From Chloroflexota bacterium (GTDB lineage: Bacteria > Chloroflexota > Dormibacteria > Dormibacterales > Dormibacteraceae), in the NCBI GenBank assembly GCA_005880175.1, contig VBJR01000219.1, forward strand, positions 7,717-51,891: a stretch of 44,175 nt of DNA. Direction: 5' to 3'. Below, piece after piece: positions 8,297 through 39,210 of this stretch. Every line of letters starts with the position of its first letter. Position 1 is the first letter of the stretch. The translations under genes and the position numbers were made by a program. Under the pieces are notes generated by a model that was not told where the DNA came from, made no database searches, and saw nothing but the letters and a program-made list of their open reading frames with translations.

Positions 8297-8302
8297 TATG
8301 AT
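8297..8302 (+). promoter_or_regulatory. -10 box TATGAT of a leaderless transcript
   Basis: TATGAT ends 8 nt before the ATG at 8311, which has no ribosome binding site. This fits leaderless transcription of the small gene and glcD. The -35 region is overlapped by the 8266-8279 palindrome. Confidence 0.4.
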
Positions 8303-8310
8303 CCGGCCGA

Positions 8311-8652
8311 ATGGACATCGTCGCCGAGGCCGCCCGCCTGCGCGCCGAGGCGGAGGCCAGGCCGCTCCGGCTGCCGGTCAACCGCCGGATCGACGAGCGC
8401 CATCACCTCGTGACCGACGACGGGCTCGGCGTCTGGTTCACGGTCCAGCTGTCCCCCCGCCGGCGCATCCTGGAGGCCGTGTTCGAGCGAGAGGACGCGC
8501 GGCCCACCGACGCGGAGTGCCGGGCCTGGCTGCGCGAGCTCGTGCCGGACCGCGAGCCCGCCGAGGCCCCCGGTCTGCCCGACGCCCGCGCCCGCCGCTT
8601 CGAGGTCTTCGAGCCGGTCCCCGGCCTCCGGTACGGAGCGGCCGCACCCTGA
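8311..8652 (+). CDS. Hypothetical protein upstream of glcD
   Basis: A 113-residue soluble protein (MDIVAEAARLRAEAEARPLRLP) that I do not recognise. It has an N-terminal helix, a beta-rich middle (GLGVWFTVQLSPRRRILEAVF) and an acidic/proline-rich C-terminus. Its stop overlaps the glcD start (TGATG), so translation is coupled and it probably belongs to the glycolate oxidase operon. A leaderless start is likely. No function can be assigned. Confidence 0.65.
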   Translation: MDIVAEAARLRAEAEARPLRLPVNRRIDERHHLVTDDGLGVWFTVQLSPRRRILEAVFEREDARPTDAECRAWLRELVPDREPAEAPGLPDARARRFEVFEPVPGLRYGAAAP

Positions 8653-10091
8653 TGCCGCTGCCGCGCTCCGTCCTGGCGGACCTGCGGCGCATCGTCGGCG
8701 ACCACCACGTGGTCCACGACGCCAACGACCTGCGCATCTTCGAGCGCGACGGCTCCATCGCCGGCGCGGTCCCCGACGCGGTCGTGCTGCCCGCCAACCG
8801 CGACGAGGTGGTCCAGGTCGTCCGGCTGGCCGCGCGCCTCGGCATCCCGGTCGTGCCCCGCGGCGCCGGCACCGGCCTCTCCGGCGGCGCCATCACGCTC
8901 CGCGGCGGCATCGCGCTCCAGCTCAGCCGGATGCGCCGGATCGTGGAGATCGACACCCGGGGCCGGACGGCCGTCGTCGAGCCCGGCGTCGTCAACGCCG
9001 ACCTCCAGCAGGCGGCCGGCCGGCTCGGCCTCTTCTACGCCCCCGACCCCTCGTCCCAGAAGGCGTGCACGATCGGCGGCAACGCGGCCGAGAACTCCGG
9101 CGGCCCTCACTGCCTGTACTACGGCGTCACGACGAACCACGTGATCGGGCTGGAGGTCGTGTTCGCCGACGGCAGCGTCGAGTGGCTGGGCGGCGACGCC
9201 CCCGATCGCGTCGGCCTCGACCTGCTCGGCGTGCTGGTCGGCTCCGAGGGCACGCTGGGCACGATCACCCGGATCAAGGTCCGGCTCGTGCCCCTGCCCG
9301 AGTCGGTCGTGACGCTGATGGCCGCGTTTCCCACGATCGAGGCCGCCAGCCACGCCGTCTCGGACGTGATCGGCCACGGCATCGTCCCGGCCGCGCTGGA
9401 GATGATGGACCAGGTCACGATCGGGGCAGTCGAAGCCCACTACCGGGCCGGCTACCCGACCGACGCCGGCGCCGTGCTGCTGGTCGAGGTGGACGGGCTC
9501 CAGGAGAGCTGCGGCGAGCTGTCCGAGGCGGTCGAGCGCGTCCTCCGCGCCAACGAGGCGACGAACCTGCGGACCGCGGCCGACGCCGCCGAGCGCGAGC
9601 TGCTCTGGGCCGGCCGCAAGGGCGCGATCGGCGCGCTGGGCCGGATCAAGCCCAACTACTACCTGCACGACGGCGTCGTGCCGCGCACCCGGCTGCCCGA
9701 CGTGCTCCGGCGCGTCACCGAGATCGGCGAGCACTACCGGCTGCCGGTCGCCAACGTGTTCCACGCGGGCGACGGCAACCTGCACCCGAACATCCTGTTC
9801 GACCTCCGCGAGGCCGGGATCATGGATCGGGTCGGCGGCGCCGGCGAGGAGATGCTGCGCGCGGTCGTCGAGCTGGGCGGCACGCTGAGCGGCGAGCACG
9901 GCATCGGCGTCGAGAAGAACGCCTTCATGCCGTGGATCTACGCGCCGGACGACCTGGAGGCCATGCTCCGCGTGAAGCACGTGTTCGACCCGGCCGGCAT
10001 GCTCAACCCGGGCAAGATCTTCCCCGACCCGGAGCGCGACCCCCGGCTGGTCGTCCGCGCCGGCTTCTGCGCCGAAGCCAAGTGGTGGTAG
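8652..10091 (+). CDS. glcD: Glycolate oxidase subunit GlcD-like FAD enzyme
   Basis: A 479-residue VAO/PCMH-family flavoprotein. The FAD-binding segments are intact: VPRGAGTGLSGGA (about 74-86), ACTIGGNAAENSGG (about 138-151) and GSEGTLGTITRI. The C-terminal FAD-oxidase_C domain has the metal-binding NVFHAGDGNLHPN and the SGEHGIGVEK motif near the end. GlcD oxidises glycolate (or D-lactate / 2-hydroxyacids) and works with GlcE and GlcF at the membrane. It is followed by glcE with a few bases of overlap. D-lactate dehydrogenase is the main alternative substrate assignment. Confidence 0.92.
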   Translation: MPLPRSVLADLRRIVGDHHVVHDANDLRIFERDGSIAGAVPDAVVLPANRDEVVQVVRLAARLGIPVVPRGAGTGLSGGAITLRGGIALQLSRMRRIVEIDTRGRTAVVEPGVVNADLQQAAGRLGLFYAPDPSSQKACTIGGNAAENSGGPHCLYYGVTTNHVIGLEVVFADGSVEWLGGDAPDRVGLDLLGVLVGSEGTLGTITRIKVRLVPLPESVVTLMAAFPTIEAASHAVSDVIGHGIVPAALEMMDQVTIGAVEAHYRAGYPTDAGAVLLVEVDGLQESCGELSEAVERVLRANEATNLRTAADAAERELLWAGRKGAIGALGRIKPNYYLHDGVVPRTRLPDVLRRVTEIGEHYRLPVANVFHAGDGNLHPNILFDLREAGIMDRVGGAGEEMLRAVVELGGTLSGEHGIGVEKNAFMPWIYAPDDLEAMLRVKHVFDPAGMLNPGKIFPDPERDPRLVVRAGFCAEAKWW

Positions 10092-14384: not shown

Positions 14385-16091
14385 CTACTCCGGCCGGACG
14401 TCCCACCAGACGTCCACGCCGCCCGAGCGGACCGGGGGCCGGCCCAGCACCGACGTGAAGTACCGCACCATCCGGTCGTGGCCGGTGTCGGGCCCGACGA
14501 CGACGGTGTCCACCCCGAGCCGGGCCAGCTCGCGCAGCGTCTCGGTCCGGTCGGCGGCGGTGTCCGGCACGGGGACGCCGCCCTCCAGCGCCTCGAACGT
14601 GGTCCGGAGATGCGACGGCGGCGGACCCAGGCTGGGCCCGGGGACGAACGCCTCGCCCTCGGGCATCCGGAACCGGTAGCCGGCGGCGGCCTGCCAGAGC
14701 ATCGCCACCGACGAGAGGTGGTCCGCGTACGGCCCGATCAGCACCATGTCGCGGGTGGACAGCCGGGCCGCCTCGCCGCCCGGCTGGAAGAACGCCGGCA
14801 CCCGCGCCGGCGTCGAGGCGTACGGCCAGCGCGGCACCAGCGGCAGCAGGGCGACCGCGACCGCCGCGAGGGCGAGGCCGCGGCGGCGGCCGGCGCCGGC
14901 CACCAGGTCCGCCAGCGCCAGCCCGACCGCCAGGTACGCGAACAGCATCAGGCGGGACGGCACGGCGCTCTCGAGCAGGGGCACGCTGCCGGCCAGCGCG
15001 CCCGGGAGCGGCACGGGCAGGACGCGGCCGCCGGCGTGGAGGTGCGGCCCGAGCGAGAGCACCGCGGCCGCCGCCCCGACCAGCGCCGCCCAGCGGACCA
15101 GCGGCCGGCGCCGGCCCAGCCAGCAGGCCGCGGCCAGCAGCAGGAGCAGGGGCACGCCCAGGTACGCGTCGGTCTCCGAGATGTTGCCGGTGAACCCCTT
15201 CGTGAGCGCCGAGGTCGGCCCGCCGCTCAGCGCCAGCACGTCGGACGGGACCACGAAGCCGAGCAGGTCGTTCACGTACACGTCGGGCGGCTGCAGCACG
15301 CCCGAGACGCGCTGCGGCCCGAGGAACTGGAGCCAGAGTGGGTACGCCGCCAGGGCGGCGAACACGGCGAGCGCGGCGGCGAGGCCCGCCAGCACGCGGG
15401 GGCCGCGAGCCGCCACCTCCCCCGGGTGCAGCGCGGCCAGCACGAGGACGCCCAGGCCGCCGGCCAGCGCCGTGTACGCCAGGATCTCCTCGCCCGTCAG
15501 GAACTGCACGGCGGCGGCCACGCCGAGCAGGGCGCCGGCCAGGAGCGGGCTCCACCGCCGCCGTACCACCAGCTCGTGCAGGAGGATCAGCGCCAGCGGC
15601 GGGAGCACGGCGAGCGACACGTGGGGATGGCGCAGCGACTGGGCCACCATGTACGGGCTGAACCCGTAGACCAGGCCGGCCAGCGCCGCCGGCCCCTCGC
15701 CCGGCACCAGCCGCCGGGCGGCCAGGAAGGCGCACCAGGCCGAGAGCGCCACCGCGCCGCTGACCAGGACGTTGTAGGAGACGACCGGCCCGAGCGCCGC
15801 CGTGACCGGCCACAGGACGACCGCCGGGGCGACGACCGCGGTGTTCCACAGCAGGTTGACGCCGCCCGGCGCCTGCAGCACATCGGCGAACAGCGGGTTC
15901 CGCAGCGCCCCGAGCCGGTGCGGCGTCCAGCCCAGGTACCAGATGAACAGGTGCGGGTCGTCGCCGGCGCCGATCCACGCCGTGGCCGGGTGGACCCACG
16001 TCGAGGCGAACAGCAGCACCGCCAGCGCGGCGTAGGCGACCAGCGCGGCGGCCGGGGTCCACGGGCGGGCCCGCACCTCGATCCCCTCCAC
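14385..16091 (-). CDS. Polytopic membrane protein, GT-C glycosyltransferase-like
   Basis: A 568-residue integral membrane protein with about 10-12 hydrophobic segments and a soluble C-terminal domain (about 430-568). An acidic motif in the first periplasmic loop (GAGDDPHLFIWYLGW, residues 41-55) resembles the DD/DP loop of GT-C enzymes that use lipid-linked sugars. A second motif, HPHVSLAVLPP, lies in a later loop. It starts with GTG 3 bp after the GT87-like gene, so both likely form one operon for cell-envelope glycan assembly. Exact donor and acceptor unknown. Confidence 0.7.
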   Translation of the reverse strand: MEGIEVRARPWTPAAALVAYAALAVLLFASTWVHPATAWIGAGDDPHLFIWYLGWTPHRLGALRNPLFADVLQAPGGVNLLWNTAVVAPAVVLWPVTAALGPVVSYNVLVSGAVALSAWCAFLAARRLVPGEGPAALAGLVYGFSPYMVAQSLRHPHVSLAVLPPLALILLHELVVRRRWSPLLAGALLGVAAAVQFLTGEEILAYTALAGGLGVLVLAALHPGEVAARGPRVLAGLAAALAVFAALAAYPLWLQFLGPQRVSGVLQPPDVYVNDLLGFVVPSDVLALSGGPTSALTKGFTGNISETDAYLGVPLLLLLAAACWLGRRRPLVRWAALVGAAAAVLSLGPHLHAGGRVLPVPLPGALAGSVPLLESAVPSRLMLFAYLAVGLALADLVAGAGRRRGLALAAVAVALLPLVPRWPYASTPARVPAFFQPGGEAARLSTRDMVLIGPYADHLSSVAMLWQAAAGYRFRMPEGEAFVPGPSLGPPPSHLRTTFEALEGGVPVPDTAADRTETLRELARLGVDTVVVGPDTGHDRMVRYFTSVLGRPPVRSGGVDVWWDVRPE

Positions 16092-27759: not shown

Positions 27760-29127
27760 CTAAACGGCGATCGCCGGCGGCGGCGCAGCGGCCAGCAGCT
27801 CCCCGAAGAAGGGGGTGAGGAGGCGGTCGGCCGGGTCGTACCGACCCCGCACGACTTCAAATCGTGCGATCCGCTCCCCGAACGCCCGGTCCACGTGCGC
27901 CCGGGTCAGCAGGCTCGTCTGGTCGAGCAGCGGCACGCCGCCGAGCTCCGCGCCCAGGTCGTTGTACGCGCGCAGGAAGTCGTCCCAGCCCGCGCCGCCC
28001 GTCGAGACCGGGTCGATCGTGACGACCGGCCCGTCGAAGGACTGCGAGAGCAGCGAGCCCTGGTCGGCCTCGAGCCGGCGGCCGGCGGCGAGGAGGTCCG
28101 GGCGGTAGCCGTGCTCCCGCTGGTGCTGCCGCGCGAACTCGACATACCGGCGCACGCACAGGGCGTACCGCTCCTCCGGGAATGCCCACGTGCTGAACGT
28201 GCTCGCGGCCCCGCCGGCCGCCTGCTGCGCCGCGGCCGCCGTGCGCTCGCCCCGGACGGCGGTGGTCGCGGCCCGGACGGTCAGCCGGCTGGCCACGTCG
28301 GTGAGGACGTGCCGCGCGGGGCCGGCGGGGGCCACGCGGCGCACCAGGTGGCCGGCGCCCGGCGCCCAGCGGCCCCAGATCGCGTTCCGGAGCGGCCACG
28401 GCCCGTCCCCGACCTCGTGGCCGGCGAGGTCCTCCTGGTACGCGCGCCGCTCGACCAGCAAGGCGTCGGTGAACGGGTCGAGGTACAGCGTGATGGACTC
28501 GCCCCGCTCCCGCGGCGCGAGCAGCGCGCGTTCGAGGTCCGCCAGCCGGTGCCGCTCGTGGCGCACCCGCATCGGGACCTGCGGCCGGACCCGGAACGTG
28601 GCCTCGTACACGGTCCCCAGGAGGCCGTGGCTGGAGCGCGCCAGCCGCAGCAGCTCGGGGTCGGACTCCGTGATCTCGACCGGGTCGCCCGCCGGCGTGA
28701 TCAGCTTGATCGACGTCGCGTACGAGGCGGTCTGACCCGACTCGCCCGGCATCGACGAGTCCCTGGCCCCGGTGCACGCCGCGGCGCCGATCGTCAGGTC
28801 GCCCAGCTCCGGGTTGACGTGGAGCTGGAGGCCGCGCCCGCGCAGCTCGCGCGCCACGTCGCGGGAGCGCGCGCCCGCCTGCGCCGTGACGTGGTCGGCG
28901 CCGATCTCCAGGACGCGGTCCATCCGCCGCATCTCGATCAGCGTGCCGCCGGCGGCGGCGCCGCACGCCGTGGCCGCGTGGTTGGAACCGGCGGCGCGGA
29001 CCGGGTTGGGATAGCGCTCCCTGTCGCGCAGGATCGCCGCGATCTCCTCGGCCGTCTCCGCCTCCACGATCACCGCGGGCCGCGACCCGGCGTCGCCGAA
29101 CCAGTTGCCGACCTCGACCCCGCCCAT
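27760..29127 (-). CDS. FAD-linked oxidase (VAO/PCMH family; aldonolactone/alditol oxidase-like)
   Basis: 455 residues. The PCMH FAD domain has PVRAAGSNHAATA (the GSGHS loop, His50), LQLHVNPELGDLTIGAAACTG and SSHGLLGTVYEATFRV. The C-terminal part ends with the YDPADRLLTPFF motif that resembles the ALO domain end. Such flavoproteins oxidise alcohols or aldehydes with O2. GGAGG about 9 nt upstream of ATG 29127 decides the start. Last gene of the oxylipin-type operon, 38 bp after the lipase. A role in oxidising fatty alcohols or hydroxy-lipids is inference; a sugar-lactone oxidase unrelated to lipids is possible. Confidence 0.8.
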   Translation of the reverse strand: MGGVEVGNWFGDAGSRPAVIVEAETAEEIAAILRDRERYPNPVRAAGSNHAATACGAAAGGTLIEMRRMDRVLEIGADHVTAQAGARSRDVARELRGRGLQLHVNPELGDLTIGAAACTGARDSSMPGESGQTASYATSIKLITPAGDPVEITESDPELLRLARSSHGLLGTVYEATFRVRPQVPMRVRHERHRLADLERALLAPRERGESITLYLDPFTDALLVERRAYQEDLAGHEVGDGPWPLRNAIWGRWAPGAGHLVRRVAPAGPARHVLTDVASRLTVRAATTAVRGERTAAAAQQAAGGAASTFSTWAFPEERYALCVRRYVEFARQHQREHGYRPDLLAAGRRLEADQGSLLSQSFDGPVVTIDPVSTGGAGWDDFLRAYNDLGAELGGVPLLDQTSLLTRAHVDRAFGERIARFEVVRGRYDPADRLLTPFFGELLAAAPPPAIAV

Positions 29128-29165
29128 GCCTGCCGACCTCCCCCGCATGAATGTCGCGAGCCGGG

Positions 29166-30104
29166 TCAGGCCGTGCCCGACTGGCCCGGGAGCAGCTGCT
29201 GCTCCGTGATCCAGGCCTTGGTGTCGTCGCGGGCGCGCCGCATGACCTGGGCGATGACGTCCGGCGTGAAGTCGAAGCCCTTGACCGGCAGCTCGACCAC
29301 CGGCGGATGGATGTGGTGGATGATGCCCGCCCGGCCCATCCGGAGCTGCACGTAGTCCTGCTCCAGCCGGGAGGCGGCGTGCATCGCGATCGAAAACGCC
29401 TTGGTCATGTTGTCGAGCAGGTTCGTCGGCGCATGGAGGAGCTCGCCGTCGTAGCCGATCGCGCACGCGTAGATCGTCCCGCAGCCCGCCAGGGCCAGCT
29501 CCGAGAGCGGCTGGTTGTCCGCCACGCCGCCGTCCACGAGCAGGCGGCCGCCGATCGCCTTGGGCGGGAACACGCCGGGGATCGCGGATGATGCCACCAG
29601 CGCGTCGGCCACGTCCGCGTCGCCCGGGAAGCGGTAGCTCTCGCCCGTCAGGCGGTCGGTCGCCTTCACGATCAGCTCCGGCCGGCCGTCGCGCCCGAAG
29701 TAGTCGAACGTCAGCCGGTCCCGCCCCGCCAGGTCGTGGAACGCGTCCGCCAGCAGTCCCCGGATGGACTCGTTGCTGCCCAGGGCGAGCAGGTGCGTCC
29801 GATCGACGATGGCGTGCCCGAGCACCTGCAGCACGGTCAGGCCCAGCGAGCGGTTGCTGACCTGCTGCGTGCCGAGCGCGGCCGCGCTGATGCCGGCGCC
29901 GCCGACCGGGTCGATCGCGTGCGCGGCGGCGGCGATGGCGCCGGCCGACACGCCGACGATCACGTCCGGCCGGATGCCCAGGTCCACGAACGCCTGGGCC
30001 ACCCCGAGCTCGACGATCAGCAGGGGGCCGCCGCCCGAGTACGAGATGCCGACCCGCCGCCGATCCGCCGCGAGCTCCCGGTCGTGGAGGATCGGCTCTG
30101 GCAT
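29166..30104 (-). CDS. Patatin-like phospholipase/acyl hydrolase
   Basis: 312 residues. Oxyanion loop SGGGP (22-26), nucleophile Ser53 in GVSAG, and catalytic Asp191 in LVDGGVADNQPL: the Ser-Asp dyad of patatins is complete. No signal peptide, so cytosolic or membrane-face. It would release free fatty acids from phospholipids or other acyl lipids. Starts 4 bp after the second nitroreductase-like gene, so it is co-expressed with the heme dioxygenase genes. Supplying their fatty-acid substrate is the obvious hypothesis. Confidence 0.88.
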   Translation of the reverse strand: MPEPILHDRELAADRRRVGISYSGGGPLLIVELGVAQAFVDLGIRPDVIVGVSAGAIAAAAHAIDPVGGAGISAAALGTQQVSNRSLGLTVLQVLGHAIVDRTHLLALGSNESIRGLLADAFHDLAGRDRLTFDYFGRDGRPELIVKATDRLTGESYRFPGDADVADALVASSAIPGVFPPKAIGGRLLVDGGVADNQPLSELALAGCGTIYACAIGYDGELLHAPTNLLDNMTKAFSIAMHAASRLEQDYVQLRMGRAGIIHHIHPPVVELPVKGFDFTPDVIAQVMRRARDDTKAWITEQQLLPGQSGTA

Positions 30105-30108
30105 GGCG

Positions 30109-31402
30109 CTACCGCGCTCCGCCCGCGCCGTGCCAGAGCTCGTCGTGGCGAGCCTGGGTGCCGCTGTAGCCGTGCTCGAACAGGGAGTCGTAGTAGCCGA
30201 GGTCGGTGTGGTGCGCCTGCACCCAGATCCCGGGCACGAACATCGCGTCGACGTGGGCCGGGAACCGCCCGTACGTGTCCCAGATGTAGTTGCAGATGTC
30301 GCGTGTGCACTCGATGACCTCGGGCGAATAGTGCGGGACCTCCTCCAGGAACACCTCGCCCTTCCCGGGATGGAACACCTTCTTGAGGTCCGACGTCTCG
30401 CTGTACACGCCCGACTTCCCGTACTTGTGCTCGACCAGCGCGTCCACCGCCGCGGACATGCTCGGGTAGTACGGCGGGCAGTACCCCTCCAGTAGGCCGT
30501 CGAGGCCCACCGGGTTGGGGCGCCACGCGGGCAGCGGCGTGATCGGCTTCAGGAGCTTGCGCAGCAGGCCGGCGCGCGGCTCCTCGTACCGGAACCCCAG
30601 GCCCTTGCCGAACCGGGAGTACGTCGGGTCCGGGTCGCCGAGCAGGAGGGGACCGGGGAACGCGGCGTGCACCCAGCCGCCGAGCCCCATCGTCTGGATG
30701 GTCAGCAGCAGGTTCTGGACCAGCAGCTCCGCCTCGACGTGGATCCGGAACGTGCCCAGGAACCCGAGGGGCAGGGGCAGGCTCCTGTCGAGGAATCCCG
30801 ACTTGACCCACTTCTTGACCCCCGCGACCCGGTAGAAGTTCCAGTCGTCGATGGGCGTGGGCCGGGGGCCGTCGCGGTGGGACAGGACGAACATCAGCCC
30901 GTTGATGTACTGCCGGGTCAGGTCCACCACGAGGGAAGTCCAGCCGGTGGTCCAGCACCTTGACCTTGCACGACTCGGCGAGCGCGATCAGGGCCTCCGG
31001 CGTCAGCCCGTCCCGCCAGCGGTCCGGGTCGGGGTCCCCGGGCTCCCGCAGGAAGTACGTGCCCGAGTCGTTGATCATGAAGAAGTGCGTCGACTGGGCG
31101 TTGTCGGGGCTGCTGGCCGACCGCCCCGTCACCTCCAGCATCGGGGTGCCGGCGAGCTTCCTGCCGTCCGTTGTCGCGTATGGCAGGTCGGGCATCGTGA
31201 CCCCGGTGATGCCGGTGACCGCGATGAGGACGGCCTCCTCGAGCGGGGTCAGCGGCTCCGGCTTCCCGGCCGAGGTGTAGCTCAGCTCGCCGGCGGGGAT
31301 GGGACCGAGGCCCCTGCTGATCCGCCGCGACCGGCGATTGAGCAGCGCCGAGAAGAACGGGTAGTCGAGGGCCTCCTCGAGACCGCGCGCCCCGTCCGTC
31401 AC
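30109..31402 (-). pseudogene. Nitroreductase-like protein, paralogue 2 (internal deletion and frame break)
   Basis: Paralogue of the 34298-35686 gene. Conserved parts: NRRSRRISRG, LEEAVLIAVTGITGVTMPD, SPDNAQSTHFFMINDSGTY, QYINGLMF and NLLLTIQTMGLGGWVH. At about 30938-30945 the frame changes, and roughly 30 residues present in paralogue 1 (its residues about 157-188) are missing between LDHRLD and VVDLTRQYI. The GTG start overlaps the catalase-related gene (GTGA). If real, the gene makes only a truncated N-terminal protein. Confidence 0.65.
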
Positions 31403-32427
31403 GTCCAGTGCCCCTGCCCGGCGTCGCGGCCCCCGCGGAGGGCCTGGCTGGCCTCGTACACCCAGCGCCGCGCCCGGTTCATGCTGCCGAGCGGCCGCAG
31501 GCCCTCCACGCAGTTCCAGGGCGTGAAGTCGAGGCCGTCCACGTGCTCCGCCGCCCGCCGGCTCTCGTCCGTCGTCAGGTCCTGCCGCGGGATGACCAGC
31601 GTGGCGATCGTCTCCTGGGGACCGCTCGACTGCCACTGGACGGTGCCGTCCTCGATCGGGGTCGAGCGCTCGTCCACGAACCGCTGCACGCGGAAGCCGA
31701 ACCGGACCGGACCCCGCCCGAGCCGGTCCACCAGCTCGTCGCGGAGGTAGTCGTCGCCGGTCGCGCCGCCGGCGGGCGGGGCGGCGTCGAGCGGTTCCAG
31801 CACGTACTTCAGCGCGCAGGTGCCGAACGCGATGGGGCAGCGGCTCCAGAACCGCTCCGTGGCCAGGCTGCTCACGTGGCGCGAGGTCCCGGCGTTGAGC
31901 ACGCGGAGCACGCGCACCATCTCGAACGGCCCCAGCCCGACCAGCAGGTGCCAGAGGGTGCCGGCGAAGGACGAGCTCGCGAACGCCCGGGCGACGACCA
32001 TGAACTGGATCGGGTCGCGCGCATGCGACGCCGGCGCGTTGGTGCCGAGGAAATCCTGCATGGTGGACTCGCCCGCGTGCACCCGGATCGCCAGCCCTCG
32101 CAGGTCCCGCGCGGAGTCCGGCTCGACGAGCCCGTTGCAGTTCGAGAAGCGGACGGTCGCCGGGTACGTCGCGCCGGGCTCGAGCAGGCTGTTGCGCAGG
32201 TCGGCCGGGACGTCCTCGGCGACCTGGAACTCCGCGTTCGTGATGCCCGCCAGGATCTTGGCGTGCTGGCCGCGGCGGATGACCGGCGCGTGCTGGCGCG
32301 CCTGCACCAGCGACTGGATCTCGTTCATCGCGGCGGCGAAGCCCCGGATGAGCTCGTCCTCGCGGGCCTGGCTCCCGCCCAGGTAGACCTCGCGCCAGCC
32401 CTGGCCGGGCACCGTCTGCGCGCTCAC
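31399..32427 (-). CDS. Catalase-related heme protein (small clade; fatty-acid hydroperoxide type)
   Basis: 342 residues, much smaller than true catalases (about 480 or more). Distal His55 lies in GQHAKILAG. The heme-pocket block YPATVRFSNCNGL, then SARDLRGLAIRVH, and DPIQFMVVARAF follow. The proximal ligand motif R320xxxY324 is in NRARRWVYEAS near the C-terminus. The residue before the distal His is Gln54 (Val in catalases, Thr in coral allene oxide synthase). Small catalase-related proteins include allene oxide synthase and the mycobacterial peroxidase MAP-2744c. Coupled to both neighbours by GTGA overlaps. Predicted role: conversion of fatty-acid hydroperoxides. Confidence 0.85.
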   Translation of the reverse strand: MSAQTVPGQGWREVYLGGSQAREDELIRGFAAAMNEIQSLVQARQHAPVIRRGQHAKILAGITNAEFQVAEDVPADLRNSLLEPGATYPATVRFSNCNGLVEPDSARDLRGLAIRVHAGESTMQDFLGTNAPASHARDPIQFMVVARAFASSSFAGTLWHLLVGLGPFEMVRVLRVLNAGTSRHVSSLATERFWSRCPIAFGTCALKYVLEPLDAAPPAGGATGDDYLRDELVDRLGRGPVRFGFRVQRFVDERSTPIEDGTVQWQSSGPQETIATLVIPRQDLTTDESRRAAEHVDGLDFTPWNCVEGLRPLGSMNRARRWVYEASQALRGGRDAGQGHWT

Positions 32428-34250
32428 TGTCCGGGGCTCCCCGGCGACCGCTTCCACGGACCGAACGCGTTCTTGATCGAGCCCATCGCCTGGCGGAGCT
32501 CGGGGTGGTGGCGAAGGACGATCGTGCCCATGTTGTTGAACTCGACCCACTCGATCCCGACCTGCGTGTAGATCTTCGGCGAGAAGTCGGTCGACAGGAA
32601 GCGGTCGCTGCTCAGCCGGCGCGGCGCGGTCAGGACGAAGAGGTGGAAGGCCGTGTTGCTGAAGGCGAAGCCCGGCGGTCGCGGCTCGGCGTACATGCCG
32701 ACCAGCAGGTCCACCCGCTCGATGTCGCCCTTGTAGATGCGCCGGATCTCTTCGGCCCAGACCGGGTTGTCGGTGAGCGACTCGAAGTCCTTCGCCGGGG
32801 CCAAGTGCAGGAGGCGCCGCATCTCGTTGTAGCGAGGGACGCCCAGCTCGCGGCAGCGCAGGAGGTCCACCGAGGCGAGGTCCATGATCTTCCCGTCCGG
32901 CCGCTCGAAGTTCTGCAGGTGCCGCGGGTAGTTGTGCAGCGTGACCAGCCCGGCGTTCATCGTGCCGAACGTGTAGATGATGTCCGTCATCCGCAGCTGC
33001 CTCAGGACGGGGATGGCCGCGGGGCCCGAGATCTCCTGCAGCGTCGCCTGCTGCAGGGGCTGGTCGCCGGCGACGGACCGGAACTCGTAGTCGTCCGGGA
33101 TCATCTGGTGCATCCGGTAGATCGCGACGAACTCCTCGGTGATCGCGAAGGGGACGCCGTAGTGCTCCGTGGCCGCGCCGAAGGAGCCGCTGATCACCCT
33201 GCTGCCGCTGATGCGCCCGAAGTGGTTGTGGATCCACTTGCCGGCCGCGCCCCAGAAGTCGGCGTGCAGCGCGGCCCGCGTGGTGGGGTGGTTGATGACC
33301 TTCGGCGACCAGTCCACCGTGTGGATCTTGTTGATGAGGGCGGCGTTGATCAGCCGGGCCCGGGTGAACACCCGCTCGTCCGACCACGACGGGTACTCGG
33401 CGCGCAGCTTGTCGCAGATCGCGTTGTGCTCGCGGGCGAACAGCACCTGCATCATCCCCAGGCCGAGCCAGAAGCCAGGGACCAGCGTCGGGTTGTGGTC
33501 GGGGTCGGTCGGGAACGGCAGCAGGCCGTCGGCGTCGATGCGCAGCTTGCCGTCCTCGCCGGTGCGCAGGAACGCCTGCTCCTCCTTCGTGGTCCCGTAG
33601 ACCTGCTTGCCGTCCCACCAGTGCGCGTGCACGTTGACGTACGTCGGCGGCAGGTCGTCGCGGCCCTCCGGCCGCGTCGGGTCGGGCGGCGTGCGCATGA
33701 TCAGCATCGGGCGCTGCGGCCACGGGTCGTCGTCCTCGAGCTCGACCTCGAACGGGTGGTCCTTGGGGCTCGTGCCGTGACTGAACCCGCCGCGGATCAT
33801 GAACTGCAGCCACGCCGCCGTCAGGGCGTTCGCGGACGTCGCGGGCTGGAACGCGTGCTTGGTCATCAGCGCGCGGCTGACCTCGCGCGGGTTCGGGTCC
33901 ATCAGGGTCGTCGCGGACTCGTACTTGCGGTCGATGGGGACGTTGCGGCCGAACCGCGAGCCGGCCATCCCCATCGACGGCAGCGTCAGGTCGTTGTACG
34001 TGCCGTCGATCGTGCGGGTGTCGAGATCGGCGGGGTCGGACGGCCCGACAGGCGGCCGGTTGACCGCGGGCAGCTGCTCCGGGTCGTACAGGTTGCGTTC
34101 GCGCAGGACGACGCGTACGCCGAAGATCACGAGGAGGCCGAGCGGCGGGGGCAGGCGCTCCCAGCCGAGCCTGCGGTCGATCGCCATCATGGCGCTGCCC
34201 AGCGCGCGCCCGATCGCGGAGCTGCGTCGCTTCGGCACGCTCGTGCTCAA
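32424..34250 (-). CDS. Alpha-dioxygenase-like heme peroxidase, paralogue A (distal His replaced)
   Basis: 608 residues of the animal-peroxidase/alpha-dioxygenase family. The catalytic Tyr378 and proximal His381 (EEFVAIYRMH) are present. At the distal-His position, where the family has FMIHDW, it reads FMIRGGFSHG (Arg153). The carboxylate-binding pair is His310 and Ser315 (KIHTVDWS) instead of His/Thr. LFAREHNAICDKL and RRLSSDRFLSTDF match the family. Start is TTG 34250 with GGAGG 9-10 nt upstream. It may have lost peroxidase priming or act on another substrate; heme binding should remain possible. Confidence 0.88.
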   Translation of the reverse strand: MSTSVPKRRSSAIGRALGSAMMAIDRRLGWERLPPPLGLLVIFGVRVVLRERNLYDPEQLPAVNRPPVGPSDPADLDTRTIDGTYNDLTLPSMGMAGSRFGRNVPIDRKYESATTLMDPNPREVSRALMTKHAFQPATSANALTAAWLQFMIRGGFSHGTSPKDHPFEVELEDDDPWPQRPMLIMRTPPDPTRPEGRDDLPPTYVNVHAHWWDGKQVYGTTKEEQAFLRTGEDGKLRIDADGLLPFPTDPDHNPTLVPGFWLGLGMMQVLFAREHNAICDKLRAEYPSWSDERVFTRARLINAALINKIHTVDWSPKVINHPTTRAALHADFWGAAGKWIHNHFGRISGSRVISGSFGAATEHYGVPFAITEEFVAIYRMHQMIPDDYEFRSVAGDQPLQQATLQEISGPAAIPVLRQLRMTDIIYTFGTMNAGLVTLHNYPRHLQNFERPDGKIMDLASVDLLRCRELGVPRYNEMRRLLHLAPAKDFESLTDNPVWAEEIRRIYKGDIERVDLLVGMYAEPRPPGFAFSNTAFHLFVLTAPRRLSSDRFLSTDFSPKIYTQVGIEWVEFNNMGTIVLRHHPELRQAMGSIKNAFGPWKRSPGSPGQ

Positions 34251-34297
34251 TACGGTCCTCCCTCCGGTTGTCGTGCGGGACGAGGGTTCAGGCGATG

Positions 34298-35686
34298 TCA
34301 CGCCGGTCCGGCGTGCCAGTCGCGGTCGTGCGCTCGGTGCGCCTCGGTCAGCCCGTCGCGGAAGAACTCGTCGTAGTACTCCTCTTCGACGTGGTGCGCC
34401 TGGAGCCACACGCCCGGGACGTGGAGCGCCTCGCAGTGCGCCGGGAACCGCCCATGGGTCTCGTAGATGTACGTGCAGACGTCTCGGGTGCACGCGATGA
34501 CGTCGTCGGCGTAGGAGCTGGCCTCCTCGAGGTACTTCGCGCCGAACTCCCCCTTGTAGATGCGCGCGAACAGGGCCTCGTCGCGGTAGATGCCGTTCGG
34601 CCCGAACTTGTCGGCGATGACCACGTCCACCGCCTCGTTCATGTCCCTGTAGTAGGGCGGGCACATCGCCTTGATCAGGTACTCGCCGTCGTGCCGGAGC
34701 CCGACGGCGTTCGCCCGCAGCGTCGCGAACATCGGCAGCGGCACCTGCCAGCGCCAGATGTCGCCCAGCCGCCACTTCGGCGTGGCGAACTCGAAGTCGA
34801 GCATCGGGCCGTACTGGCCGCGGAACTTGGGGTCGCCGAGCAGGACCGGAGGCGACATCGACCCGTGGACCCACGCGCCGAGGCCCATGGCGTCGGCCGC
34901 GAGCACGAGATTCTGCAGGATGAGATCGGCCTCGATCTGCGTGCGCATCGCCCAGATGATCCCGAGCGGCAGCTTGAGGTCCTTGTTGAGGAACCCGTTC
35001 CTGACCCAGCGCTTGACGCCGGCCATCCGGTAGAAGTTGCGGTCGTCCACGATCGTCGGCCGCGCCCCCTCGGGCTGGGTCAGGATGTACATCATCCCGT
35101 TGATGTACTGGCGGGACAGGTCCACGACCGGGAACAGGATCGTCGTCCCGGGCAGGTTCGACAGGAACCGGTTGGAGTCGAGGTAGGCCGGGAAGTCGCG
35201 GTTGCCGTCGGGCACGTCGATCCGGTGGTCGAGGATCCGCACCTTGGACTGGTTGGCCCGGGCGATCAGCACGTCCGGGTCGAACGGCGACTGCCCGGCG
35301 TCCGGCGGCGGCAGCTTGCGCAGGTAGTACGTCCCGCTGTCGTTGATCAGCAGGAAGTGCGTCCCCTGGGCGTTGTCCGGGCTGCCGGCGGTCCGCCCGG
35401 CCATGTTCAGGTTGGGCTTGGCCATGATCGGCTTGCCGTCGCGCGGGTCGGCGAACGGGCGGTCCGGCATCGTCAGTCCGGTGCAGCCGGTGAGCGAGAT
35501 CAGGATCGCCTCCTCCAGCTCGGACAGCGGCGCGCGCTGGTGGGGCGACGTGTAGCTCATCGTGCCGGCCGTGATCGAGGTGCCGCGGCTGACCCGGTGG
35601 GTGCGGCGCCGCCAGATCGACTCCAGCAGCGGGCGGGTCGACAGCGCCGCCAGGCCCGCGTGCTCGTGCGTGGCCCGCGAGCTCAT
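34298..35686 (-). CDS. Nitroreductase-like protein, paralogue 1
   Basis: 462 residues of a family I cannot name with certainty. N-terminal WRRRTHRVSRG (25-35) and LSELEEAILISLTGCTG resemble the RRS and helix motifs of nitroreductase/SagB-type FMN enzymes. SPDNAQGTHFLLINDSGTYYL and LQNLVLAADAMGLGAWVHG (257-275) fit the second half of that fold. No known metal or heme motif is seen. It starts 4 bp after the alpha-dioxygenase B gene and ends 47 bp before A, with a second copy downstream. FMN-dependent reduction of a dioxygenase product is a hypothesis. Confidence 0.65.
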   Translation of the reverse strand: MSSRATHEHAGLAALSTRPLLESIWRRRTHRVSRGTSITAGTMSYTSPHQRAPLSELEEAILISLTGCTGLTMPDRPFADPRDGKPIMAKPNLNMAGRTAGSPDNAQGTHFLLINDSGTYYLRKLPPPDAGQSPFDPDVLIARANQSKVRILDHRIDVPDGNRDFPAYLDSNRFLSNLPGTTILFPVVDLSRQYINGMMYILTQPEGARPTIVDDRNFYRMAGVKRWVRNGFLNKDLKLPLGIIWAMRTQIEADLILQNLVLAADAMGLGAWVHGSMSPPVLLGDPKFRGQYGPMLDFEFATPKWRLGDIWRWQVPLPMFATLRANAVGLRHDGEYLIKAMCPPYYRDMNEAVDVVIADKFGPNGIYRDEALFARIYKGEFGAKYLEEASSYADDVIACTRDVCTYIYETHGRFPAHCEALHVPGVWLQAHHVEEEYYDEFFRDGLTEAHRAHDRDWHAGPA

Positions 35687-35690
35687 CGGC

Positions 35691-37502
35691 TCACACCGCG
35701 TCCCAGGGCGCGAACGGGTTGCGGCCCGCCTGGAGCGACGGCCGCAGGTCGGGGAAGTGGCGCAGGAGCACCGAGGCGAACCCGTTCTCCTCGATCCAGC
35801 GCAGGCCCTCGGGCGTGTAGACCTCGGACTTGAAGTCGGTCGTGAAGAAGCGGTCGCTGTTCAGGCGGCGCGACGCCATCAGGATGAAGATGCGGAACGC
35901 GGTGTCGCTGAACCCGAACCCGGGCGGCGGCGTCTCGGCGTAGAGACCGACCATCAGGTCCACCCGCTCCAGGTCGCCGCCGTACACGCTCTGGATCTGC
36001 TCGTTCCACTCGGGCTTGTCCGAGAGCTGGTCGAACCGCTTCAGCGGCGGCTTGTGCAGCAGACGGCGGAACTCGTTGTAGCGGGGCACGCCGCGCTCGC
36101 GCGAGCGCAGGATGTCGATGGCCGCCAGGTCGTTGAGCGAGCCGTCGTCCTCGTTCAGCCGCTGCATCGCGCGCGGGAAGTTGTGCAGCGTGATGGCGCC
36201 CGGGTTCGTCACGCCGAACGCGTACAGGGCGTCCGCCATGCCGACCTGCTCGAGCGCCGGCCGGACGCCCCGGAAGATGACCTGCGGCAGCTCGTACGTC
36301 ACGGGCTGGCGCTTGCCGCTCAGCGACGGGAACGGGAACTCGTCGCGGAGCAGCGGGTGCATCCGGTACACGGAGACGAACTCCTCGGTGATCGAGTACG
36401 GCACGCCGAAGTGATCTGGATCGGAGCCGACGATGCCGCCGAGCAGGTCGCCGCGTCCGATCCGGCCGACCGCCTCGTGCAGGCGCTGGCCCTCCAGGCC
36501 CCACCAGTTCGCGCGCAGGGCGACCCGGATCGTGGGGTGGGCCAGGATCGCGGGCGTCCACTCGACGGTGTGGATCTTGGCCATCAGCGCGGCGTTGACC
36601 AGGCGGGCCCGGTCGAACAGCTCCTGGTCCGACCAGTCCGGGTACTCCTCGCGCAGGCGGTCCGCGATCGCGTTGTGCTCCAGCGTGAACAGCGTGTGCA
36701 TCAGCTCCAGGCCGATCCACCAGTTGCCGCTGACGCCGGTCACGGGGACGCCCTGGGCGGGATCGAGCGGGAGCAGGCCGTCCTGCTGGATGTGCAGCCG
36801 GCCGCCCTCGCCGGCCCGCACCGTCTCCTGGGTCGGCTGGTCGCTGCCGTAGAGCTGGGAGGCGTCCCACCACGAGCTGGCGGTGTTCTGGAACGTCACC
36901 TGGCCGCCCTGGTCGTCCGGCCGGGTCGGGTCGCGGCGGGTGCGCAGGATGCGCATGGGCCGCTCCGGCCAGTCGTCCTCCTGGTCGACCTCGATGCGGT
37001 AGGGGTTGTCCTTCTCGTTCTTCCCGTGCGACAGCCAGTCGTGGATCATGAACTGGACCCAGGCCGCGGCATGCAGGTTGAGGGACGTGGCCGGGATGAA
37101 CTCGTGCCGGGTCAGCAGCTCGCGGCTGACGAGCCGCGGGCTGGGCTCCAGCAGCCGGTCGTCGGGCTCGGGGCGGGTGCGGTCCAGCGGCACGTTGCGG
37201 CCGAACCGGGTGTTGGCGCTGCCCATGGCCGGGAACGAGAGGTCGTTCCAGGTGCCGTCGGACGAGCGCGCGGTCGCCCGCCGCTCGCTGTCGGGCGGCG
37301 TCTCCCGCTCGCCGGTCGACGGCAGGTGCTCGGTGTCCTCGAGGTTGTGCTGGCGCAGCCGGATGCGGAGGCCGTCCAGCACGAACGCGCCCGGGTACGC
37401 CGGGAGGCGCCACCAGCCGATGGTCCGGTCCACCAGCGCGGCCCAGCTCGCGACGAGCCGGTCCGCCAGTGAGAGTCGGTAGGGCCGAAGCTCCGGGCTC
37501 AT
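35691..37502 (-). CDS. Alpha-dioxygenase-like heme peroxidase, paralogue B (canonical active site)
   Basis: 603 residues. All key alpha-dioxygenase residues are present with correct spacing: distal His154 (FMIHDWLSH), His311 and Thr316 (KIHTVEWT) expected to hold the substrate carboxylate, catalytic Tyr379 and proximal His382 (EEFVSVYRMH). Plant alpha-dioxygenases insert O2 at C2 of fatty acids to give 2-hydroperoxides. No signal peptide. ATG 37502 gives MSPELRPYRL; longer readings lack support. First gene of the seven-gene operon. Linoleate-diol-synthase-like or other peroxidase chemistry is the alternative. Confidence 0.9.
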   Translation of the reverse strand: MSPELRPYRLSLADRLVASWAALVDRTIGWWRLPAYPGAFVLDGLRIRLRQHNLEDTEHLPSTGERETPPDSERRATARSSDGTWNDLSFPAMGSANTRFGRNVPLDRTRPEPDDRLLEPSPRLVSRELLTRHEFIPATSLNLHAAAWVQFMIHDWLSHGKNEKDNPYRIEVDQEDDWPERPMRILRTRRDPTRPDDQGGQVTFQNTASSWWDASQLYGSDQPTQETVRAGEGGRLHIQQDGLLPLDPAQGVPVTGVSGNWWIGLELMHTLFTLEHNAIADRLREEYPDWSDQELFDRARLVNAALMAKIHTVEWTPAILAHPTIRVALRANWWGLEGQRLHEAVGRIGRGDLLGGIVGSDPDHFGVPYSITEEFVSVYRMHPLLRDEFPFPSLSGKRQPVTYELPQVIFRGVRPALEQVGMADALYAFGVTNPGAITLHNFPRAMQRLNEDDGSLNDLAAIDILRSRERGVPRYNEFRRLLHKPPLKRFDQLSDKPEWNEQIQSVYGGDLERVDLMVGLYAETPPPGFGFSDTAFRIFILMASRRLNSDRFFTTDFKSEVYTPEGLRWIEENGFASVLLRHFPDLRPSLQAGRNPFAPWDAV

Positions 37503-37656: not shown

Positions 37657-39210
37657 TCAGCGCGCGGTCGCGTACGAGAAGATGATCTGGTCGATCAGGC
37701 GCTCGACGGGCGCCAGGTCGTCCGTGAAGACCTGGCCGTGGTACGTCGAGACACGCAGGTTGCCGTCGCCCGGGCCCACGGCGGTCGCCGCCACGTGGTC
37801 CACCAGCGGCTCGTGCGCCAGGGTCAGGTTGTGCAGCACGTCGTCGATCGTGGTCGGCTGGCTCGTGCCGAAGATCATCGTGTTGCTGAAGCTGGGGACG
37901 TCCACCAGGAAGATGCTCGGGTACACGGCCGCCATCGTGCTGGCGAGCGCCGCGACCAGCCGGTAGTCGGTCGCCGTCCGCCCGGCGTTCACCACCACCG
38001 TCCCGCCCGGCGTCAGGTGGTCGGCCGCCAGCTGGAAGAACTCCTTCGTGGTCAGGTGGAACGGGATGTACGGCTGCCGGTACGCGTCCATGGCGATGAG
38101 GTCGTAGCGGCCGCCCTGCGTGGCGAGCCAGTAGCGCGCGTCCTGGACCACGGTGTGGACGTTCGGCTCGTCCAGGTGGAAGTACCGGTGGGCGACGTCC
38201 ACGATGTCCGGGTCGATCTCGACCCCGGTGATGTCGACCGAGGTCCCGAACGCGGCCGTCATCTGCCTGGCCGACGTGCCGCCGGCCAGGCCCAGGATGG
38301 CGACCTGTTTGGGCCGCGGCTCCTGCGTCTGGGCCGGCCGGAAGTAGTCGCCGAGCATGAAGTAGTCCCAGGGGCCGCCGGTCACCAGCGACGTGGGGTC
38401 GTAGATGGAGTGGATCGCCTGGCCCTCGTTGAGGATCAGCTCGGTCTTGCTGCCGTCCTGGACGACCTGGATGTAGTGGTAGGCGGAGTCCTTCTCGTAC
38501 AGCAGCGTCCCCACCTCGGGCGGCTTGATGCCGTGGGGCAGGAGGTACGCGCCCACCAGCACGAGGATCAGGAAGGCGGCGAAGACCCAGCGCCGGGGCC
38601 AGAGCTCCGTGAGGGTCCTGGGCCACAGGCCGGCGACCGAGATGGCGAGCAGGCCGACGCTGAACATGATCATCGTCGGTCGCGTGCCGAACGTGGGGAT
38701 CAGCCAGAAGACGGGCAGGAACGTGCCCAGGATGCTGCCGGCGGTGCTGAGCGCGTAGACGGCGCCGGCGGTGTTGCCGCCGCTCTTCACGTCGGTCAGG
38801 AGGAGGCGGATCGCGAACGGCGACACGCAGCCGAGCAGGATCACGGGCACGGCGAAGAGCAGGACGACGGCGAGCAGGGTGCCGAGCACCAGTCCGATCG
38901 AGAGCTGCGCGAAGCCCTGCTGGGATTGGAGCAGGATGGGGTACGCGACGAGGGGGATCAGGCCGATCCAGAGGCCGGCCCAGGCGGTGAGCTGGAACAG
39001 GAGGTCGGGGCTCGGATGGCGGTCGGCGAGGCGACCGCCGAGGACGTAGCCGATGCTCAGGTAGATCAGCACGAGGCCGATCAGGACGCCCCAGACGTAG
39101 AGGCTGGTCCCGAAGTACGGCGCGAGCAGGCGCGACGCGCCGAACTCGACGCCGAGCGACGCCAGGCCCGACATGAACACGAGTGGCAGGAGCAGGCGGC
39201 GAGCGTTCAC
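37657..39210 (-). CDS. Membrane-fused spermidine-synthase-like protein
   Basis: 517 residues: about seven TM helices in the first half (PLVFMSGLASLGVEFGASRL, and GCVSPFAIRLL with LSTAGSILGTFLPVFWLI). The SAM-binding synthase domain follows (ILGLAGGTSARQM, GVEIDPDIVDVAHRYF, VVQDARYWL). The usual aminopropyltransferase gate motif is replaced by MDAYRQPYIPFHLTTKEFF, so it may not make polyamines. Common in actinobacteria and chloroflexi; function unclear. GTG start. Same strand as, and 154 bp upstream of, the oxylipin-type operon. Confidence 0.85.
   Translation of the reverse strand: MNARRLLLPLVFMSGLASLGVEFGASRLLAPYFGTSLYVWGVLIGLVLIYLSIGYVLGGRLADRHPSPDLLFQLTAWAGLWIGLIPLVAYPILLQSQQGFAQLSIGLVLGTLLAVVLLFAVPVILLGCVSPFAIRLLLTDVKSGGNTAGAVYALSTAGSILGTFLPVFWLIPTFGTRPTMIMFSVGLLAISVAGLWPRTLTELWPRRWVFAAFLILVLVGAYLLPHGIKPPEVGTLLYEKDSAYHYIQVVQDGSKTELILNEGQAIHSIYDPTSLVTGGPWDYFMLGDYFRPAQTQEPRPKQVAILGLAGGTSARQMTAAFGTSVDITGVEIDPDIVDVAHRYFHLDEPNVHTVVQDARYWLATQGGRYDLIAMDAYRQPYIPFHLTTKEFFQLAADHLTPGGTVVVNAGRTATDYRLVAALASTMAAVYPSIFLVDVPSFSNTMIFGTSQPTTIDDVLHNLTLAHEPLVDHVAATAVGPGDGNLRVSTYHGQVFTDDLAPVERLIDQIIFSYATAR

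Follow-up and report, generated by a model that had tools for sequence, protein, structure and literature searches.

Oxylipins serve in defence and in the control of signalling in plants, animals and fungi; to our knowledge, few bacterial oxylipin routes are known. Described here is a seven-gene operon of a soil bacterium (Chloroflexota), encoding alpha-dioxygenase-like (DOX), catalase-related (CAT) and nitroreductase-like (NTR) proteins together with a patatin-like lipase and a flavin adenine dinucleotide (FAD) protein. The stretch analysed, called the window below, covers 44,175 nt of contig VBJR01000219.1 (7,717 to 51,891); positions without a locus label are coordinates in it.

Cyanobacterial alpha-dioxygenases (alpha-DOX), a tandem of a dioxygenase and a catalase-related protein in Nostoc, and fusions of catalase-related and lipoxygenase domains are already in print. 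CalDOX of Calothrix parietina is a tested alpha-DOX with heme-ligand histidines at positions 131 and 361; in the alpha-DOX tree given with it, N-terminal extensions were trimmed and sequences of >1000 aa were dropped (PMC8720084, available text). Nostoc punctiforme possesses a linoleate 10S-dioxygenase and a catalase-related 10S-hydroperoxide lyase, encoded by separate genes (PMC13049297, on Brash 2014; excerpted text). Anabaena and Acaryochloris possess fusions of a catalase-related domain with lipoxygenase (PMC11719350, in the part available). In mammals, fatty-acid alpha-oxidation employs a thiamine-diphosphate (TPP) enzyme, the 2-hydroxyacyl-CoA lyase HACL1 (PMC11271303, available passages).

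The operon combines DOX, CAT and NTR genes, and the linkage of these three families exceeds chance. A lipase-fed pathway of fatty-acid alpha-oxygenation is, in outline, the probable function of the operon; this is held with modest confidence.

Linkage of DOX, CAT and NTR

Genome contigs were scanned with the NTR family. The scan gave 117 relatives, and the best 80 were taken as loci, each extended by at most 10 kb to either side. DOX is present in 80/80 of these NTR loci, and CAT also in 78/80. The loci span Actinomycetota, Pseudomonadota and Chloroflexi. At least 16 genera appear in the locus titles, among them Streptomyces, Nonomuraea, Actinomadura, Geodermatophilus, Rhizobium, Mesorhizobium, Sphingomonas, Roseibium/Labrenzia and Bradyrhizobium, as well as one Chloroflexi and one gammaproteobacterial assembly.

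CAT and DOX form a single open frame, roughly 930-1300 aa in length, in 74 of the 78 CAT-bearing loci. L010, L028, L034 and L053 were not scored as fused; in L034 the sole reason is that the called gene begins 15 nt after the start of the CAT match. A fusion in reverse order, DOX domain then catalase-related domain, is present at L136:7481-10393 (970-aa frame); the DOX and CAT genes of L138 are 15 nt apart. The existence of the fusion in both orders argues that CAT acts on the DOX product. Co-occurrence and synteny, on which the first-pass annotation had staked its reading, were found for DOX, CAT and NTR alike. Gene order and strand vary: some Streptomyces carry CAT-DOX on the opposite strand, kilobases away, with a TPP gene between. 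The order DOX-NTR-DOX-CAT-NTR of the window was seen in none of the 80 NTR loci.

Relatives of NTR occur in 16 of 72,556 plasmid records at E <= 1e-50, including one 11.9-Mb Nonomuraea record. A Phyllobacterium plasmid carries, co-oriented, a patatin, a TPP enzyme (split in two), a peroxidase and an NTR (split and annotated as two hypothetical proteins). A conjugative plasmid of Rhizobium phaseoli (L175, NZ_CP013583.1) carries a peroxidase (CAT-DOX), a cytochrome c, a small protein and NTR. In the class of genome G009 (110 genomes), the NTR of G009 itself was the only one found at E <= 1e-60. In the class of genome G281, matches are distant only (21 of 299 genomes, best 1.6e-49). An origin from phages or viruses was rejected: no NTR relative was confirmed in viral contigs (46 pattern matches), and none occurs among 50,697 phage records.

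Several genes near the module were seen in some loci or clades. At L013:5654-8293 and L061:2943-5507, which lack CAT, DOX is fused to an N-terminal stretch resembling membrane helices; by eye, this stretch is similar to a small Roseibium gene that separates DOX from NTR (L075:9310-9978). Caspase-FGE-sulfatase, trypsin-like and subtilase genes lie near the cluster in some clades (L015:11981-14080, L036:14140-16194, L077:11413-13053).

Gene content and active-site residues

The operon is located on the minus strand, 37502-27760, and comprises seven co-oriented coding regions in the order DOX-B, NTR1, DOX-A, CAT, NTR2, patatin and FAD_binding_4 protein. Computed spacings between successive genes are 4, 44, -4, -4, 4 and 17 nt. 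The second becomes 47 nt if DOX-A begins at the TTG codon at 34250, which is preceded by a GGAGG-type ribosome site. All reading frames other than that of NTR2 (six in number) are open. Frames, Pfam families and spacings bear out the gene set and gene order of the operon as first annotated.

DOX-B (35691..37502; 603 aa) is an alpha-dioxygenase-like heme enzyme (PF03098, 9.6e-110). Its alignment with plant alpha-DOX 4kvj is full-length (residues 9-602) and scores 405.6 bits, vs <=83 bits for the other heme peroxidase and cyclooxygenase (COX) chains listed (lactoperoxidase 83, COX-2 ~53). All 8 alpha-DOX positions checked are retained, including the distal H154, H311, T316, Y379, the proximal H382 and R546; H311 and R546 presumably bind the substrate carboxylate. 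Distal HDW is likewise present in 79/79 aligned DOX frames of the NTR-found loci. Identity is 51% over 581 aa to a 584-aa DOX on a plasmid of Calothrix sp. PCC 6303. That protein has His at 131 and 361; because the numbering agrees with PMC8720084, it is taken to be CalDOX or a near copy. On the same plasmid (L180:12228-15910), GMC oxidoreductase and patatin genes are located downstream of DOX in the same orientation.

DOX-A (32424..34250; 608 aa, TTG start; PF03098, 6e-95) is a paralogue 47% identical to DOX-B. Its distal motif is QFMIRGG, vs QFM(I/V)HDW in DOX-B and plant alpha-DOX. Catalytic Tyr, proximal His, substrate His and Arg are all present (motif string RGGHSYHR). Because Arg replaces the distal heme histidine, DOX-A is classed from its residues as alpha-DOX-like only. 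Homologues of DOX-A number 4851; the best 120 (P0125-P0244), which include its own database entry, have 95 RDW, 15 KDW, 4 RGG, 2 RDG, 1 RYW and 3 HDW at the distal site. Since Arg or Lys stands for the distal heme histidine in 117 of these best 120, its loss is common to many relatives and looks like a lineage trait rather than decay; Tyr, proximal His and Arg remain. The distal histidine of the alpha-DOX family is 'partially conserved' in the text available from PMC8720084. The Nostoc 10S-dioxygenase too departs from COX at this position (PMC13049297, excerpt), so that a missing distal histidine need not mean inactivity. DOX-A is probably a paralogue that has diverged and is activated in another way.

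Both DOX proteins carry YRMH, not YRWH. The latter is the motif of COX-like 10S-dioxygenases.

CAT (31399..32427; 342 aa) is a separate gene in the window, overlapping DOX-A by 4 nt. PF00199 matches at 6.8e-10, over residues 46-149 only; a profile built from 30 CAT relatives matches 3e4w at 6.8e-22, covering positions 34-328 of 329. H55 (distal His), N130 and Y324 (proximal Tyr) are retained, and the distal His and proximal Tyr are present in 75/75 aligned CAT-bearing frames. The distal His is preceded by Gln in CAT, by Phe in 65/75 aligned relatives and by Val in true catalases. By these features CAT is a short catalase-related heme protein and a candidate for hydroperoxide metabolism.

NTR1 (34298..35686; 462 aa) is a nitroreductase-fold, flavoenzyme-like protein; the fold is supported by the predicted model. 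For the nitroreductase-like proteins, no Pfam or NCBIfam model matched at E <= 0.01, and a 46-row NTR profile gave no convincing sequence match among solved structures (best E 0.066, unrelated). The N-terminal R27, R28, T29 and R31 of NTR1 are invariant in the 46-row alignment. We take them to resemble the phosphate-binding motif of flavin mononucleotide (FMN) nitroreductases, and FMN binding is predicted.

NTR2 (30109..31402) is a disrupted second gene in two frames, both NTR1-like. The first ~155 codons and the last 273 codons are in different frames, the switch lying near 30934. The two parts match NTR1 residues 19-157 at 51% and 187-459 at 45% identity. No counterpart is present for NTR1 residues 158-186 (~29 codons), which include 13 residues invariant in the 46-row alignment. 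The disruption may reflect pseudogene formation or a fault in the assembly; the NTR2 product is probably inactive. The pairs of nitroreductase-like and alpha-dioxygenase-like genes recognised at first pass stand as families, but NTR2 is frameshifted rather than intact and DOX-A lacks a full heme site (RGG vs HDW).

The patatin-like lipase (29166..30104; 312 aa; PF01734, 2.8e-23) has GxSxG (GVSAG) and DGG (VDGG) motifs in translation and matches PlpD 5fqu at 2.1e-11. A 65% identical patatin adjoins the module in L028. A survey of near neighbours covered 132 genes at 32 chosen loci, with DOX, NTR and TPP genes excluded; patatin is the top Pfam family (6), with DAO (4), Trypsin_2 (4) and Lipase_3 (2) also present.

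The FAD_binding_4 oxidase/dehydrogenase-like protein (27760..29148; 462 aa; PF01565, 1.7e-17) is 36.6% identical over 459 aa to a FAD protein of a Qingshengfaniella plasmid, where the FAD and DOX genes are divergent; that DOX is accompanied by the FAD protein, a RoxA-like cytochrome and an alpha/beta hydrolase.

Of the 80 NTR loci, 47 include a TPP enzyme, whose identity between phyla is 57-77%. It was found as a called gene in 46, and in 45 of these it lies <=600 nt from the module. Its scores are 258 bits to BbmA, 175 to pyruvate oxidase and ~133 to HACL.

Beyond the operon, PrxQ had been read at first pass as protection nearby. That role was not borne out: in none of the 96 other loci compared (the 80 NTR loci and 16 DOX loci) does anything match PrxQ at E <= 1e-8. 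Spermidine-synthase-like and DnaJ neighbours have no match in these 96 loci at the same threshold. The frame at 37657-39210 encodes a fused MFS/spermidine synthase, 85% identical to a Candidatus Dormibacteraeota protein, which is suggestive as to the host. A 568-aa reading frame at 14385-16091 (minus strand) has no NCBIfam match at E <= 1e-5 and may not be a gene.

Proposed pathway and alternatives

The proposal starts from what is observed: the set of genes, the catalytic residues that they encode, a linkage that is conserved, and the joining of CAT to DOX in either order. Family knowledge suggests the substrate, the chemistry of each step and the biological role. A fatty acid would be freed by the patatin. 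DOX-B would form a heme-driven tyrosyl radical and make a 2-hydroperoxy acid by adding O2 to the alpha carbon. On this 2-hydroperoxide CAT would act by reduction, dehydration or cleavage, and the outcome would be a chain-shortened aldehyde or else a 2-hydroxy or 2-oxo acid. The FAD protein could take over next if the product is a 2-hydroxy acid; a 2-oxo acid or an aldehyde would be a fitting substrate for the TPP enzyme of the relatives. NTR would reduce or oxidise an intermediate, and NTR1, the FAD oxidase and the relatives' TPP enzyme would finish the product. Any one particular end product is held with much less confidence than the outline. The pathway from membrane lipid to an oxidised compound, as first proposed, gains strong support from synteny and fusion, but loses the intact NTR2, the distal His of DOX-A and the role of PrxQ.

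A DOX-first survey covered 396 genomes of one phylum (E <= 1e-60, <=3 candidates scored per genome). DOX was found in 20 genomes at 23 places, 6 of them contig-end fragments and 17 full-length. The full-length places include 3 CAT-DOX fusions (L103, L117, L125), 1 reverse fusion and 1 adjoining CAT. The CAT-DOX fusion of genome G148 has no NTR within the 18 kb examined. L126 and L141, L128 and a Streptomyces plasmid combine DOX with benzoylformate-decarboxylase-like, FAD-linked oxidase and hydrolase genes; sets of DOX, benzoylformate-decarboxylase-like protein and FAD oxidase fit the 2-hydroxy-to-2-oxo-to-aldehyde chemistry that the pathway would need. Sets of this kind make up a second type of DOX cluster, seen in L182, L128, L141 and L126, in which the FAD oxidase is GlcD-like and a hydrolase gene is also present. 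The window itself contains a GlcD-like FAD oxidase at 8298-10091 (plus strand), 17 kb from the operon, which clusters with the family adjoining DOX in L126, L128 and L141.

Several points weigh against the alpha-oxygenation pathway or its generality. The 80 NTR loci are rich in Streptomyces and hence not independent. Linkage is looser when DOX is the starting point: CAT is near 5/17 and NTR near 2/17 full-length DOX places, and 12/17, L126 and L141 among them, have neither in the 9-18 kb examined. With the low-complexity filter on, at E <= 1e-8, the patatin has a match in 1/96 and the FAD protein in 0/96 of the other loci; with the filter off, the FAD protein has weak partial matches (30-32% over 186 aa) in L126 and L141. 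The TPP enzyme is absent from the window. The frameshift of NTR2 means that part of the operon has decayed. Alpha-regioselectivity of DOX-B is predicted, sequence being no proof of it.

DOX might instead act at another carbon, or on a substrate other than a free fatty acid (e.g. a polyketide or a lipid head); CAT would then work in the manner known from Nostoc, as a hydroperoxide lyase with positional specificity or as a synthase of the allene-oxide type. The pairing of linoleate 10S-dioxygenase with a catalase-related lyase (PMC13049297, as excerpted) and the mid-chain action of catalase-lipoxygenase fusions (PMC11719350, available part) speak for it. It is nevertheless unlikely: DOX-B scores 405.6 bits to alpha-DOX vs ~53 at best to COX-type chains, and it keeps H311 and R546, to which we assign carboxylate binding. 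A decaying, largely non-functional duplicate in the window would account for the frameshift of NTR2 and the missing distal histidine of DOX-A. Six other frames are open, however, the examined active-site residues of DOX-B, CAT and patatin are retained, and Arg/Lys recurs among the best-listed DOX-A homologues; decay of the whole is improbable.

A protective set, which would make no signal but clear away peroxide, fatty-acid hydroperoxides and free fatty acids that lipid damage releases, would suit the catalase-related nature of CAT and the di-heme cytochrome c peroxidase-like gene added in 6/80 NTR loci. A dioxygenase, though, produces hydroperoxides; the distribution is patchy, partly plasmid-borne and unlike that of a housekeeping system, and PrxQ is unlinked. 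Protection is considered quite unlikely. Caspase-like (4), trypsin-like (8) and subtilase (4) genes among the 80 loci, patatins nearby and matches of PADLOC profiles to a few of the 132 neighbours would agree with a module of biological conflict or cell death whose product is a membrane-damaging lipid. The peptidase neighbours, however, vary by clade, occur in a minority of loci and are absent from the operon, and 22 of the 25 PADLOC families listed (25 of 36) match one neighbour each. Such a module is very unlikely.

Lipase-fed alpha-oxygenation is retained as the outline. A fuller version is offered tentatively and is doubtful: a mobile, so far unrecognised oxylipin pathway of Streptomyces, rhizobia and Chloroflexi-related soil bacteria, with a CAT/alpha-DOX fusion core and TPP and nitroreductase-fold partners. 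It would start at membrane lipid, pass by way of alpha-hydroperoxides and end in acyloins (alpha-hydroxyketones), chain-shortened aldehydes or alpha-oxo acids, possibly as a signal. The cluster hints at a little-explored bacterial way to oxidised lipids. Being conserved and sometimes plasmid-borne, the CAT-DOX cluster suggests that culturable Streptomyces and Rhizobium make a dedicated product. Fatty aldehydes or hydroxy acids could be made in one pot with the CAT-DOX fusion as catalyst. The Arg/Lys-type bacterial DOX subfamily offers a way to test tyrosyl-radical initiation without a distal histidine.

Comparison with described systems

At first pass, no described operon of this composition was known. 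This stands for the CAT/alpha-DOX neighbourhood, which was not found in print, but not for the pairing of a heme dioxygenase with a catalase-related lyase, known from Nostoc punctiforme (PMC13049297, excerpted text). The catalase-related/alpha-DOX fusion and the four-gene neighbourhood were not found in open-licence literature, papers beyond it not being excluded.

Lipoxygenase is a non-heme iron enzyme, and the AOS-LOX protein (PDB name) is of coral origin. The fusions of coral, Anabaena and Acaryochloris likewise join a catalase-related domain to a fatty-acid dioxygenase; the partner is lipoxygenase there, vs heme alpha-DOX in the CAT-DOX relatives. The FMN nitroreductase superfamily, including CLA-ER (4qlx), has the same predicted fold as NTR1, which is longer (~460 aa vs 163-250 in most matched nitroreductase chains). 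CLA-ER acts on oxidised fatty acids. The TPP enzyme of the relatives is closer to BbmA and pyruvate oxidase than to HACL.

The Nostoc tandem resembles the operon in that a catalase-related gene adjoins a heme dioxygenase gene, as in the overlap of DOX-A and CAT. It differs in the dioxygenase, which is a COX-like 10S enzyme there and alpha-DOX-like here, and the excerpted text of PMC13049297 mentions no NTR, TPP enzyme or lipase with it. Plant and cyanobacterial alpha-DOX (OsDOX, AtDOX, CalDOX, LepDOX; PMC8720084, available text) are matched by DOX-B in full length, distal and proximal His and catalytic Tyr. In contrast to them, the DOX genes described here share an operon with genes for CAT, NTR, a lipase and a FAD protein, are fused to a catalase-related domain in relatives and include, in DOX-A, a form with no distal histidine.

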